A stretch of DNA of 34,291 nucleotides from Thermodesulfovibrio sp. (lineage in GTDB: Bacteria; Nitrospirota; Thermodesulfovibrionia; Thermodesulfovibrionales; Dissulfurispiraceae). Within the stretch, counting starts at the first letter, position 1. Each line of letters begins with the position of its first letter. The position numbers and the translations under genes are program-made. Location: the NCBI GenBank assembly GCA_013824325.1, contig PNNP01000005.1:1-34291 (forward strand), given 5' to 3'. Under the pieces are notes generated by a model. The model saw only the letters and a program-made list of their open reading frames with translations, did not search any database and was not told the DNA's origin. Positions 12,996 to 18,509 of the stretch are shown here, one piece after another.

Positions 12996-15900
12996 TTATT
13001 CAGGTTTCCCTGTCATCACAAATGCGCCCCAGTAAAATGGGTTTGATTTCTTTTTCATCATATTTAGTTTAGCCTCTCTTAACGCATCACTTTTGGATCT
13101 GCCTTCAGATATAAGTGTATAGAACTCTGTCATCAGCTCTGTTGTCTCTGCGCTCGGCACACTCCATAAACTCATTACCAATGTCTTTGCACCTGAGAGT
13201 ATAAATGCCCTTTTCAATCCAAATACCCCTTCTCCGTTTTTCACATCGCCAACACCTGTTTCGCATGCAGACAATACAACAAGGTCTGTGCCTTTCAGGT
13301 TCAGTCCGAGTATTTTTTCAGCGCTTACCATACCTTCATCCCTTCCCGCTTTCAAAGAGGCATTTACCCCTGCAAACACAATCCCTGAGCGGAGCATCGG
13401 GTTTTCAATATTGATTGTCTCATCTCTTATTTCAAAGCCTTCTTTCAGCTTTATTGTAATTCCTCTTGTCTCTTTGCTGCCTTTGAGTTCTTCGTCATTC
13501 AGGAAATATCCGTGTGTTGCAAGATGGAGTATTTTGGGCGTCTCTGTGGAGAACATCACTTCTTCAATCGCTTTTTTGTTCTGATAGTTCTTTACCTTGA
13601 ATTTCTTTTTTAAGACCTTCTCTATGGCGTCTGCCTCCAGCTTTGTGTCAGGTAGTCTTTCAAAGCTGAGGGTTGAAGCGTCCCTTGATACGCTGCCCCT
13701 TAGTGTCTGTGTTGTATTGATTGCCTGTGCAACTTGGGTTCTTTCGGTTAATCCCATGTCATAGTCAGGGTCTGCAATGATAAGGGCATCACCCTTGGCT
13801 GTGTTTGTATCGGTAAACCTGATTATGTCCCTTCCTGCGGCGATGTAATTAATTGTATGGTTCTCAATGAAGTACTTGTTATCAGGCGTTACCAACGCTT
13901 CAAAGGGTATGAGGTTGAGGTTCCCGTCAGGGCTTATAAATAACTGTTTCTTCCCTGCGATGTACTTCTCCAATGGTTTAATCGCAATATCATATATGGT
14001 GCGGGCGGCTTTGTCTAAAACAATTTTATTGGGAGTTTCGCCTGATGTCTTTATTTTGTTCATCTCCTGAAGATATGCCCTGACGTGTTTTTCTATCTCT
14101 TCGGCATCGGCTATTTCGATTAGTTTTACTTCAGGTATTTTGTGCGGTATCAGGACAAAAGCAAGGTATTTTGGTTTATCCCATTTGTTTGTCTTGAAGT
14201 TATAAAACTTAATCCTTGCAAAGTCTATATATGTTGAATCCTTTGGCAGTATCTCTGATATGTTTTTAACATCAGCCCTGCCGATTGTTTTTTCAAGGGC
14301 AAAGTCTTTGCTCAATCTGCTTAACTCGGCTTCGAGGGTTTCCTTTTGTTTTTGAAGTTCGGCAATCCTGTTTCTGTAATCTTCAAAACTCCCCTTATCT
14401 GGTTTTGATAACTGCATCTTTGCTATTTCCCTGCGGATGTTGGTGAGTTCATCAAACTTATTTTTTATTTCAGGGTCGCCGGATTGCATTGCCGCATCCA
14501 TATATCTACCCTGCGCCTCTGCAACAGCACCTTTCCATTTGAGCCATGCATTAAAGGTGTCGGTTATTGATTGAGATGATGATTGCATATGTTTAACTGT
14601 ATGAGACATAAAACCGTGAATAGTGCCTTCTTTCTGATTTATATAAGTGATTTTCTGCTTTTCATTGAGGAGCAGAAAAGTATTTTCTTTCACTATATCG
14701 TCAACAGTAATACCTCTTTTAAAAAAATAATGGCTTTCAGAATGTTTATCCATTCTCGCATAGAGCACTGCCAGATTGTTAAGACTTGCTGCTACAGAAG
14801 GCTGTTCATTGCCAAGTGCTTTCTCATATATCTCAAGCGACCTTTTAAACAATGGTTCGGCCTCTGCATACCTACCTGTGGATTCATAAAGCAATGCCAG
14901 ATTATTAAGGCTTCCTGCTGTATAAGGATGTTCTTTGCCAAGCGCTTTTTCCATTATCGCAAGTGACCTCTTATACAATGGTTCAGCCTCTGAATACCGA
15001 CCTGTTACTCTATAAAGCTCCGCCAGATTATTCAGACTTGTCGCTACATCAGGATGTTCTTTGCCAAGTGCTTTTTCCCTTATCCCAAACGATTTTTTAT
15101 AAAGAGATTCAGCTTCCGCATACATGCCTGTGGAATCATAGAGAAGTGCCAGATTATTAAGGCTTGTTGCTACAGAAGGATGTTCCATGCCAAGTGCTTT
15201 CTCCATTATCTCAAGTGACCTCTTATAAAGAGGGTCTGCTTCTGCATACCTGCCTGTGTTTCTATAAAGTTCTGCCAGATTATTCAGACTTGTTGCCACA
15301 TCAGGATGGTCTTTACCAAGTGCTTTCTCTTTTATCGCAAGTGACCTTTTATAAAGCGGCTCTGCCTCTGAATACCTGCCTGTTGATTCATAAAGCAATG
15401 CCAGATTATTAAGGCTTGTTGCTACATCAGGATGCTCGCTTCCAAGTATTTTCTCTATCATTCCAAGTGATCTTTTATACAATGGCTCTGCCTCTGAATA
15501 CCGACCTGTTACTCTGTAAAGCTCTGCCAGATTGTTAATGCTTGTTGCCACATCAAAATGGTCTTTACTAAGGGCTTTTTCCCTTATCTCAAGTGCCCTC
15601 TTATGCAATGGTTCAGCCTCTGCATACTTGCCGGTAGAGGCGTAAAGCAATGCCAGATTATTAAGGCTTGTTGCTACATCAGGATGCTCTCTGCCAAGTG
15701 TCTTCTCCCTTATCACAAGCGACCTCTTATGCAATGGCTCTGCCTCTGCATACCTGCCGGTAATTCTATAAAGCTCTGCCAGATTATTCAGACTTGTTGC
15801 CACATCAGGATGGTCTTTGCCAAGTGTTTTCTCGTATATCTCAAGTGACCTCTTATGCAATGGCTCTGCCTCTGAATATCTGCTCGTTAATCTATAAAGC

Positions 15901-16151
15901 ACTGCCAGATTGTGAAGACTTTCTGCTACATCAGGATGCTCTATGCCAAGTGCTTTCTCCACTATATCAAGCGACATTTTTATGTAATTTATTGCTTCAT
16001 TGTATCTTCCTTGGCTATACAGTTTTTCTGCTTTCTGATTGAGTTTGCGGGCTTCATCAAGCTCTTTCTTTATAACATCCTCTCCAAAAACAATTTGAGA
16101 CAATAATATTGCCACAAGAAAACAGATTGCTATTGTTATGACTTTTCTCAT
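12996..16151 (-). CDS. Secreted/periplasmic TPR-CHAT protein (caspase-like peptidase domain)
   Basis: 1051 aa; N-terminal signal-peptide-like MRKVITIAICFLVAILLSQIVFGE, ~10 kinesin-light-chain-type 42-aa TPRs, CHAT dyad regions KILHLATHGYF (His) and DLVVLSACETGVGDVKNGEGVFGLKRAFILSGA (Cys), terminal NPFYWGAFVMTG. Confidence 0.93.
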   Translation of the reverse strand: MRKVITIAICFLVAILLSQIVFGEDVIKKELDEARKLNQKAEKLYSQGRYNEAINYIKMSLDIVEKALGIEHPDVAESLHNLAVLYRLTSRYSEAEPLHKRSLEIYEKTLGKDHPDVATSLNNLAELYRITGRYAEAEPLHKRSLVIREKTLGREHPDVATSLNNLALLYASTGKYAEAEPLHKRALEIREKALSKDHFDVATSINNLAELYRVTGRYSEAEPLYKRSLGMIEKILGSEHPDVATSLNNLALLYESTGRYSEAEPLYKRSLAIKEKALGKDHPDVATSLNNLAELYRNTGRYAEADPLYKRSLEIMEKALGMEHPSVATSLNNLALLYDSTGMYAEAESLYKKSFGIREKALGKEHPDVATSLNNLAELYRVTGRYSEAEPLYKRSLAIMEKALGKEHPYTAGSLNNLALLYESTGRYAEAEPLFKRSLEIYEKALGNEQPSVAASLNNLAVLYARMDKHSESHYFFKRGITVDDIVKENTFLLLNEKQKITYINQKEGTIHGFMSHTVKHMQSSSQSITDTFNAWLKWKGAVAEAQGRYMDAAMQSGDPEIKNKFDELTNIRREIAKMQLSKPDKGSFEDYRNRIAELQKQKETLEAELSRLSKDFALEKTIGRADVKNISEILPKDSTYIDFARIKFYNFKTNKWDKPKYLAFVLIPHKIPEVKLIEIADAEEIEKHVRAYLQEMNKIKTSGETPNKIVLDKAARTIYDIAIKPLEKYIAGKKQLFISPDGNLNLIPFEALVTPDNKYFIENHTINYIAAGRDIIRFTDTNTAKGDALIIADPDYDMGLTERTQVAQAINTTQTLRGSVSRDASTLSFERLPDTKLEADAIEKVLKKKFKVKNYQNKKAIEEVMFSTETPKILHLATHGYFLNDEELKGSKETRGITIKLKEGFEIRDETINIENPMLRSGIVFAGVNASLKAGRDEGMVSAEKILGLNLKGTDLVVLSACETGVGDVKNGEGVFGLKRAFILSGAKTLVMSLWSVPSAETTELMTEFYTLISEGRSKSDALREAKLNMMKKKSNPFYWGAFVMTGKPE

Positions 16152-16300
16152 AGTGTGCCTCTCAGAATTAATTATATCATTTAAATCAAACTTTATAACG
16201 ATTCTGGAGAAAGCTTGGTAGTGGGTCAGTTTGAATATATATCAGGCATTATTTTTGCTGTTGAAATTTGGACATCTGAATAAATACGCAAAAAAAATAC

Positions 16301-16327
16301 TTGACAAACGTATTATTATGCTATAAT
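16301..16327 (+). promoter_or_regulatory. Sigma70-like promoter with extended -10 driving the cargo genes
   Basis: TTGACA (16301-16306), 15-nt spacer, TGCTATAAT (TATAAT at 16322-16327). Confidence 0.6.
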
Positions 16328-16392
16328 GAAACTATGATAACATCCCAGAATAAGAGGAAGGGTGTTGTTCCTGCCTGAAAAGCAAAAGAATT

Positions 16393-16836
16393 ATGAGTAC
16401 AATTACATTAGATGAATATAAAGCTCTTACGGCAAAGATATCTGCTGATAGTGATGTAGTAGCTTCTTTGGGCAAATCAGTTGCCGTATCTATGTCTTTT
16501 TCGAGTGTATTCATTCGTTCTCTATTTCTCGTTATTTTGAGTCACAGATTATTAAAAAGCATGAATCGAATGGAATCAGCCTGTTTTACATGTAATATAA
16601 ACTGTAACATTACTTTTGATTTTAAAAACAAATTAGAAGAAATTGTTACAACGTGGGATGAAGTAATTAAAAATAAAGAGCAAATTAATTTTCCTAAGCT
16701 AATTTTACGATGGGAAAATGATCTTTTAGAACAATTTGAAAATAAACTTGAAAATTATTGGATTGCTTCTGATAAGGAGATAAAAGATTTTGCTCATTCA
16801 ATATCTGACAAACTAAATAAGCATGCCCTTCAATGA
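16393..16836 (+). CDS. Unknown 147-aa protein, putative partner of the downstream RelE/ParE-like toxin
   Basis: ORF MSTITLDEYKALTAKISADSDVV...; hydrophobic stretch VSMSFSSVFIRSLFLVILSH; overlaps the toxin start by 14 nt. No family recognised. Confidence 0.55.
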   Translation: MSTITLDEYKALTAKISADSDVVASLGKSVAVSMSFSSVFIRSLFLVILSHRLLKSMNRMESACFTCNINCNITFDFKNKLEEIVTTWDEVIKNKEQINFPKLILRWENDLLEQFENKLENYWIASDKEIKDFAHSISDKLNKHALQ

Positions 16837-17218
16837 ACCCTTCCGGGCGACTTGTTTCACTAAACAATACGATTACCTTTTTAATAGCAAATTCCCAAAA
16901 TCTAAGAATAGCGTCAAAGCAATAATAGATGGTATCATCATTAACCCGCTTCAGGGTGATAGATTCCCCGGATTTGGTCAGAATACTCATATCAGAAAAT
17001 TAAGAATCGGATTAAAGGAATACCACATAAGCAAAAGAGATGGGCTTCGATTAATTTGGTTATTAAATGAAGATAAAAAGTGGATTTTAATGGTTTCGTT
17101 GTATCATGAGCGTGAATATAAGCGTGAACAAATAATTCAAGAGATGATTAGAGATAATTTAAGATCAATTATTTCATACATAGAGACAAGATATCCTCAA
17201 TCTCCCACAAGCGAGTAA
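16823..17218 (+). CDS. RelE/ParE-superfamily toxin-like protein
   Basis: INPLQGDRFPGFGQNTHIRKLRIGLKEYHISKRDGLRLIWLLNEDKKWILMVSLYHEREYKREQI matches the RKLR-x-G...Y-x-I-x-KR-x-G-x-R-x-I pattern of RelE/ParE folds. Confidence 0.65.
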   Translation: MPFNEPFRATCFTKQYDYLFNSKFPKSKNSVKAIIDGIIINPLQGDRFPGFGQNTHIRKLRIGLKEYHISKRDGLRLIWLLNEDKKWILMVSLYHEREYKREQIIQEMIRDNLRSIISYIETRYPQSPTSE

Positions 17219-17303
17219 CCCCAGCCGCCATTGCCGGAGTAATTCTTCCCTCTACTAAGGCCGCTATTATTTGCGCTTGTTTCTTTATGTCTAACTTGTT
17301 CAT
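17169..17303 (-). pseudogene. Internally deleted transposase remnant (IS1-like N- and C-termini joined in frame)
   Basis: Reverse-strand ORF MNKLDIKKQAQIIAALVEGRITPAMAAGVTRLWEIEDILSLCMK*. The first part resembles IS1-like transposase N-termini (MNKLxxxKRAQIxxxLVEG), the second resembles their C-termini (LRVTPAMAAGVxxxLW). Only 44 aa, just inside the right TIR. Confidence 0.65.
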
Positions 17304-17376
17304 GATTATATTATACTTGACAGCTCAAGCATGGCAATATCAGGAAAAATCAAACTGACCCACTACCGAAAGCTTT

Positions 17377-17445
17377 AAATCCTTGACAATATTTGAAATT
17401 TATATGATAGTAAATTAAGGTTTAATTCTGATTCCTACAATTTTT
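17377..17445 (+). repeat. 69-bp direct repeat, copy 1
   Basis: aaatccttgacaatatttgaaatttatatgatagtaaattaaggtttaattctgattcctacaattttt; two differences from 18441-18509. Confidence 0.92.
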
Positions 17446-17562
17446 CCGGTTCTCATTTAATTATCCCCCCACAGAGACTTATAGCAATCTATTTATTTCA
17501 GCGTGAACTGTCAAACGATAGTTATATAAAATTCAAAACCATCTCTCCGCTATATTCCTTAC

Positions 17563-17590
17563 AAAAAGCGTGCAAAGACTTTTTTCAGTC
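17563..17590 (+). repeat. 28-bp direct repeat, copy 1
   Basis: aaaaagcgtgcaaagacttttttcagtc, identical to 18074-18101. Confidence 0.92.
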
Positions 17591-17704: not shown

Positions 17705-17938
17705 ATGATTGATAGAATAACTGTAAATCCAGCAATTCTCGGCGGAAAACCCATTGTAAAAGGCACAAGGATATCGGTAGAGTTTATTCTTGAGCTGCTT
17801 GCATCCGGCGTTACCGAGGATGAAATACTCAGGGATTATACACATCTTAAAAAAGAAGATATTCACGCCTGTCTTGAGTATGCTGCCCGTGCATTGAAAA
17901 ATGAGATAATTGTTGAACTGGAACCCGCTGCTGCATGA
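17705..17938 (+). CDS. DUF433 antitoxin (VapB-like)
   Basis: 77 aa; ITVNPAILGGKPIVKGTRISVEFILELLASGVTEDEILRDYTHLKKEDIHACLEYAA; GGAGGTG SD; extended -10 TGCTATAAT at ~17646-17654. Confidence 0.92.
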   Translation: MIDRITVNPAILGGKPIVKGTRISVEFILELLASGVTEDEILRDYTHLKKEDIHACLEYAARALKNEIIVELEPAAA

Positions 17939-18108
17939 AATTTGCATCTCTTAAAATCCTCGTAGATGAAAATATCTCACCCCGTGTTGTATCTTTTCTT
18001 AGGCAGAGAGGAATAGATACCATTGATGTTAAAGAAGAGGGATGGCAGGGCAAGGATGATGAGCACCTCTTAAAAAAAGCGTGCAAAGACTTTTTTCAGT
18101 CTTTATGA
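17935..18108 (+). pseudogene. Truncated DUF5615 (PIN-like) toxin
   Basis: Overlapping ATGA start; MKFASLKILVDENISPRVVSFLRQRGIDTIDVKEEGWQGKDDEHLLKKA then CKDFFQSL*. Only 57 aa; family members are about twice that and continue with a ...VTxDxDF motif. Divergence coincides with the 28-bp repeat. Confidence 0.75.
18074..18101 (+). repeat. 28-bp direct repeat, copy 2 (at truncation point of the DUF5615 gene)
   Basis: Identical to 17563-17590. Confidence 0.92.
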
Positions 18109-18369: not shown

Positions 18370-18440
18370 AATATAAAATTCTCCCAATTGCAAGTGATGT
18401 GAGCTTGAGAGTGTTTCACATTAATAATGAAGAATGTCTG

Positions 18441-18509
18441 AAATCCTTGACAATATTTGAAATATATATGATAGTAAATTAAGGTTTAATTCTGATTCCT
18501 GCAATTTTT
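18441..18509 (+). repeat. 69-bp direct repeat, copy 2 (upstream of the EamA gene)
   Basis: 67/69 identity by eye with 17377-17445. Confidence 0.92.

Follow-up and report, generated by a model that had tools for sequence, protein, structure and literature searches.

Insertion sequences (IS) are commonly portrayed as holding no more than their movement needs, and the locus examined here raises the question of how a unit bounded by the ends of such an element comes to hold two overlapping genes of toxin-antitoxin (TA) appearance in the place of a transposase. The unit (1,151 bp) lies within a 34,291-nucleotide stretch of a Thermodesulfovibrio sp. genome, called the window below. With a probability of roughly 80%, we read it as a cargo transposon of the IS1 family that deletion has left non-autonomous and that carries a TA-like operon of the mRNA-interferase kind. 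Its features, and the evidence on which each was called, are as follows.

16209-16216: left copy of the target-site duplication (TSD), GAAAGCTT (sequence)
16217-16234, plus strand: left terminal inverted repeat (TIR), GGTAGTGGGTCAGTTTGA (arm complementarity, shuffles; same end known in many phyla)
16301-16327, plus strand: possible ORF1-ORF2 promoter, TTGACA at 16301-16306 and TATAAT at 16322-16327 (sequence)
16393-16836, plus strand: ORF1, 147 aa, all-helical by prediction, probable antitoxin partner (position, co-conservation with ORF2)
16823-17218, plus strand: ORF2, 131 aa, RelE/HigB-superfamily toxin-like (profile, fold, phrog_5869)
17169-17303, minus strand: 44-aa transposase remnant (alignment to intact transposases)
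17310-17337, minus strand: promoter-like site TTGCCA-16-TATAAT, directly before the transposase remnant (scan; 11/12 match)
17350-17367, minus strand: right TIR (arm complementarity, shuffles)
17368-17375: right copy of the TSD, GAAAGCTT (sequence)

The two 18-bp arms are 100% complementary and the 8-bp GAAAGCTT is flush against both outer edges, in agreement with the perfect TIRs and direct repeats described in a sequence-only reading of this DNA. IS1-family elements start with GG and make duplications of about 8-9 bp, and both traits are present, in the first letters of GGTAGTGGGTCAGTTTGA and in the 8-bp length of the TSD. As in mobile insertion cassettes, intact ends and a TSD enclose other genes without a functional transposase. 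Coincidental repeats were rejected as exceedingly improbable: with three mismatches allowed, the 18-mer was observed twice in the window against 0.01 matches expected from shuffles, the same ends, flanked by duplications, recur in 60 elements, and a remnant of the transposase gene was found between the ends. A perfect 8-mer match arose by chance in 4 of 12,000 draws of random positions in the loci examined.

That remnant qualifies the earlier claim that no functional transposase is encoded, which stands in that none is intact and falls short in having overlooked the in-frame-deleted ORF on the minus strand. Its 44 codons read MNKLDIKKQAQIIAALVEG followed directly by RITPAMAAGVTRLWEIEDILSL, and in alignment with intact transposases they correspond to residues 1-19 of an IS1-family transposase and, fused in the same frame, its residues 250-272. 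Because the remnant aligns to the two ends of the transposase, the unit can be described as an internally deleted IS whose lost gene is the transposase itself. The IS1-family origin proposed earlier is thus borne out by the remnant, the ends and the duplication length, and the non-autonomous state is supported as well. The consensus-like promoter reported ahead of ORF1 fared less well, since its 15-nt spacer makes it a weak candidate, one that was missed by a scan for spacers of 16-18 nt. A segment similar to the 17310-17337 site (TTGxCxxTGCTTxAGCGG...) precedes the first gene of the long relatives.

Many other sequences have these TIRs. The exact 18-mer was found in at least 120 stretches of the genome collection, the matches listed including Acidobacteria, Proteobacteria, Planctomycetota, Nitrospirota, Actinobacteria, Chloroflexi, Bacteroidetes and other phyla, and within a phylum sample it occurred with at most one mismatch in 65 of 396 genomes, against three occurrences in all for a reversed control pattern. 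Calling elements by paired ends and an 8- or 9-bp duplication (at most one mismatch) returned 60 distinct elements of 66 bp to 4.4 kb from many phyla (23 below 400 bp, 5 at 400-1,900 bp and 32 longer), and among their TSDs, preselected in this way, 47 match perfectly over 8 bp and 4 over 9 bp. In the long elements the transposase belongs to a single clade and is usually accompanied by one small basic protein, with cargo that varies. In most of them this protein (L151:980-1207 and equivalents) is encoded close to one of the ends; it bears the motif KNPAAVALGRLGGLKGGKARA..LS..KR.EIAKKAA.ARW, common to the N-terminus of P63C proteins; 29 ORFs match, some of them being those N-termini, and the small basic protein itself matched no Pfam or NCBIfam family.

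A full-length copy with the same TIRs and an intact transposase, for which the sequence-only reading had suggested a search, was found in the Nitrospirota MAG FK_Sedi_B_Bin.60 (JAMCWJ010000024.1, G075:C102:37914-41387). This 3,474-bp element, L151, has the window's ends, is flanked on both sides by its own 8-bp TSD GGCTTTCC, and encodes the small basic protein (75 aa), a P63C-domain protein (366 aa) and a transposase (274 aa). On its opposite strand lie homologues of ORF2 (62% identical) and ORF1 (67%), placing both ORFs inside a complete TIR- and TSD-bounded element elsewhere; copies with the same and, in sister elements, with other cargo thus both exist. DNA alignment of the window with L151 recovered the operon (72% over 857 columns), the transposase start (80%) and the terminal 46 bp (83%), three blocks arranged as two deletions (~1.4 and 0.7 kb) would leave them, which would be the simplest history of the window element relative to L151. 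The L151 transposase was matched by NCBIfam transpos_IS1 (E 1.9e-13, against 1.2e-4 for transpos_IS1595) and by Pfam DDE_Tnp_IS1 (E 1.1e-4), none of them reaching its curated cut-off, and its plasmid homologues are annotated 'IS1 family transposase'. Because it scores below the curated IS1 cut-offs, it is, as judged by these profiles, a divergent single-ORF subgroup of IS1 type.

The two overlapping ORFs noted earlier (147 and 131 aa) are present, with an overlap of 14 nt, and several lines of evidence bear on what they encode. An ORF2 profile built from five relatives matched HigB-2 toxins of the PDB (E 8e-6), and the ORF2 model (pLDDT 75) has the element order H-H-E-E-E-E-H, which is that of RelE; the best structural match of this model was Vibrio cholerae HigB2 (probability 1.00, TM 0.44/0.51, E 2e-3), lending modest support to a predicted RelE fold. 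ORF2 has conserved basic residues (K59, K65, R76) and also matches phrog_5869; its window sequence alone matched no Pfam or NCBIfam family, no match to it was detected in the plasmid and phage collections, and searches of Pfam, NCBIfam and PADLOC with either ORF returned nothing above cut-off. For ORF1, no PDB or HigA profile match and no HTH were found, nor any recognised antitoxin or DNA-binding domain of the sort seen in type II TA partners, and a pattern search of viral contigs gave no occurrence. Its model is all-helical, at low confidence (pLDDT 53), and part of it is hydrophobic, the 19-residue hydropathy peaking at 1.95 (residue 30).

As in a type II TA operon, the two genes are small, overlapping and co-conserved. 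The adjacent pair is kept in L151 (within an IS), in L152 (on a chromosomal contig, with no TIR nearby), in L194 (on an IMG/VR contig, among neighbours that by inspection are terminase-, portal- and protease-like) and, distantly, in L167. Estimates of dN/dS, made with synonymous sites near saturation, are ~0.18 for ORF1 and ~0.08 for ORF2, and both look to be under purifying selection. ORF1 is, from its conserved pairing, probably the antitoxin partner of ORF2, and the profile, the model, the conservation of the pair and the purifying selection together make a TA function likely, with putative toxin and antitoxin activities. The earlier proposal of a TA-like cargo is upheld to this extent: profile and fold place ORF2 among toxin-like proteins of the RelE superfamily, and its partner gene is conserved with it. 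It is unlikely, in our judgement, that the pair is no addiction module, with ORF2 a RelE-fold protein in some other role (for example phage-related or regulatory) and ORF1 a protein unrelated to it that is helical or membrane-associated. The weak single-sequence similarity of ORF2 to known toxins, a relative on a viral contig, and the hydrophobic stretch of ORF1 together with its want of an antitoxin domain point that way, but profile and fold both indicate HigB2, the overlapping two-gene order is kept in four contexts, and recognised TA modules occupy the equivalent cargo position in sister elements.

In the reading favoured here, the element would have descended from an ancestor ordered as TIR, small basic gene, P63C gene, transposase gene and, on the opposite strand, ORF2 and ORF1 before the second TIR, an ancestor that entered GAAAGCTT through DDE transposition of the usual IS1 type. 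Two deletions, before or after insertion, one of ~1.4 kb (accessory genes) and one of ~0.7 kb (transposase codons 20-249), would have left the ends and cargo only. ORF2 would act as a HigB/RelE-type mRNA interferase restrained by ORF1 in a type II-like operon, and once the element is lost the toxin, being longer-lived, would be released, such that the module would penalise loss and may persist after the ability to transpose is gone. The window element could then be moved solely by a transposase from another copy.

Whether it was so moved is a separate matter. That the deleted form itself reached this site as a mobile insertion cassette, with the transposase of another IS1-type copy acting in trans, is plausible, with the odds somewhat against it. 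The ends and duplication are intact, and other cargo elements with no transposase or a remnant only exist (L153, L162, L213). Genome G421 holds one full-length transposase match alongside 55 forward and 51 reverse end matches, that is, some 50 short elements with the same ends; the four loci inspected there (L220, L222, L223 and L224) are elements of 139-141 bp that share the TIRs and contain a GGGACACGTCCC hairpin internally, a pattern that appears as expected for mobilisation in trans. Against this, the window's own genome (67% complete) yielded no other copy of the element and no full transposase, none was detected in most members of the family either, where one genome, G004, has a transposase, and decay in place needs no second step. 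Given the single copy, the 67%-complete genome and the lack of a detectable transposase, deletion in place after self-driven insertion fits equally well, and the window copy may have decayed where it stands.

For another member of the group, L201 in genome G285, 28 further genomes of the genus were searched, and in these the flanks adjoin with only a variable stretch of ~30 bp between them, which supports insertion at the G285 site. No empty site of the window copy was found in the family searched, where its flanks match only separately. Within the window, the segment from the insertion border (17376-17457) is repeated downstream at 18436-18509 with ~91% identity and contains a promoter-like TTGACA; the 82-bp right-flank repeat at 18428-18509 was rejected as an internal empty site, the similarity ending at the insertion border. 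Beside the element is a second TA-like pair (17705-18108), in which a DUF433 gene stands ahead of a DUF5615/PIN-like gene shortened to 57 aa. The pair is bracketed by a 26-bp direct repeat, AAAGCGTGCAAAGACTTTTTTCAGTC (17565-17590 and 18076-18101), which ends the DUF5615 gene and whose core has only two occurrences in its own genome. On the other side, a 1051-aa protein (12996-16151, minus strand) with tandem TPR-like repeats and, by inspection, a CHAT-like C-terminus is encoded up to a point 57 bp short of the insertion site, and matches to its repeats occur in related genomes.

TA or restriction-modification signatures were borne by 13 of the 39 elements longer than 700 bp, three of the 39 being without a verified duplication. 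Because the window's TIR served to find the elements, these counts describe a biased sample in which this IS group alone was surveyed. The modules concerned are the following.

HigB toxin, alone or together with an HTH-M78 antitoxin: L127, L202, L206
HTH-M78 protein: L067, L199
HicA or HicAB: L154, L203
Gp49 toxin and HTH: L210
SocA/Panacea: L155
MqsA-like protein and DUF4258: L116 (MqsA by count and inspection)
MvaI/BcnI restriction-modification: L162
ORF1-ORF2: L151 and the window

In addition, L058 and L153 carry GNAT proteins, which may be toxins, and the remaining elements hold P63C proteins or genes without known role. L162 (L162:1180-3042, 1863 bp, same ends) encodes a DNA methylase along with a restriction enzyme of MvaI/BcnI type and retains only a C-terminal transposase remnant. 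At a little short of even odds, we tentatively propose a phylum-spanning IS1-family clade that combines one transposase and a small basic protein with interchangeable addiction or defence modules, in which IS survival would depend on post-segregational killing, ORF1-ORF2 would be one such module, with an antitoxin of a new family, and elements would repeatedly end up as cargo that has outlasted its transposase. An IS1-type clade across many phyla with interchangeable cargo, in which TA and restriction-modification genes are frequent, would, if addiction cargo protects the element, offer a direct route for the spread of TA genes through chromosomes and explain the persistence of IS remnants after transposase loss. 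The ORF1-ORF2 pair may add a new family of antitoxins.

IS1 elements, mobile insertion cassettes and TA-carrying transposons are each known already, and our literature search, with ISfinder and the main IS reviews outside its scope, found no paper linking IS1-family elements to TA cargo, a weak negative. With the IS1 family, the intact relatives share GG-starting TIRs and 8-9-bp duplications, and the best profile matches of their DDE transposase are of IS1 type; they differ in that the transposase is a single ORF of ~275 aa scoring below curated IS1 cut-offs and in that full elements reach 2-4.4 kb with passenger genes, the window copy having lost its transposase. Like mobile insertion cassettes, a term in use (PMC3913671, PMC7157771), and MITEs, the window element is TIR-bounded, duplication-flanked and transposase-less, and like the cassettes it carries other genes, although its cargo is TA-like rather than an antibiotic resistance or plant-pathogen gene. 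The HigB2 toxin of the HigB2-HigA2 system of Vibrio cholerae (PDB 5ja8, 8a0x) is matched by ORF2 in profile and fold, whereas ORF1 gave no HigA profile match, no HTH was found in it, and its gene precedes that of the toxin. The Tn3-family transposons are likewise of DDE type and recurrently carry varied TA pairs (Lima-Mendez et al. 2020, PMC7157771); the clade described here is instead of IS1 type, with no resolvase seen and cargo untied to a res site, and its modules are of the HigB, HicA, MqsA and SocA types, together with restriction-modification.
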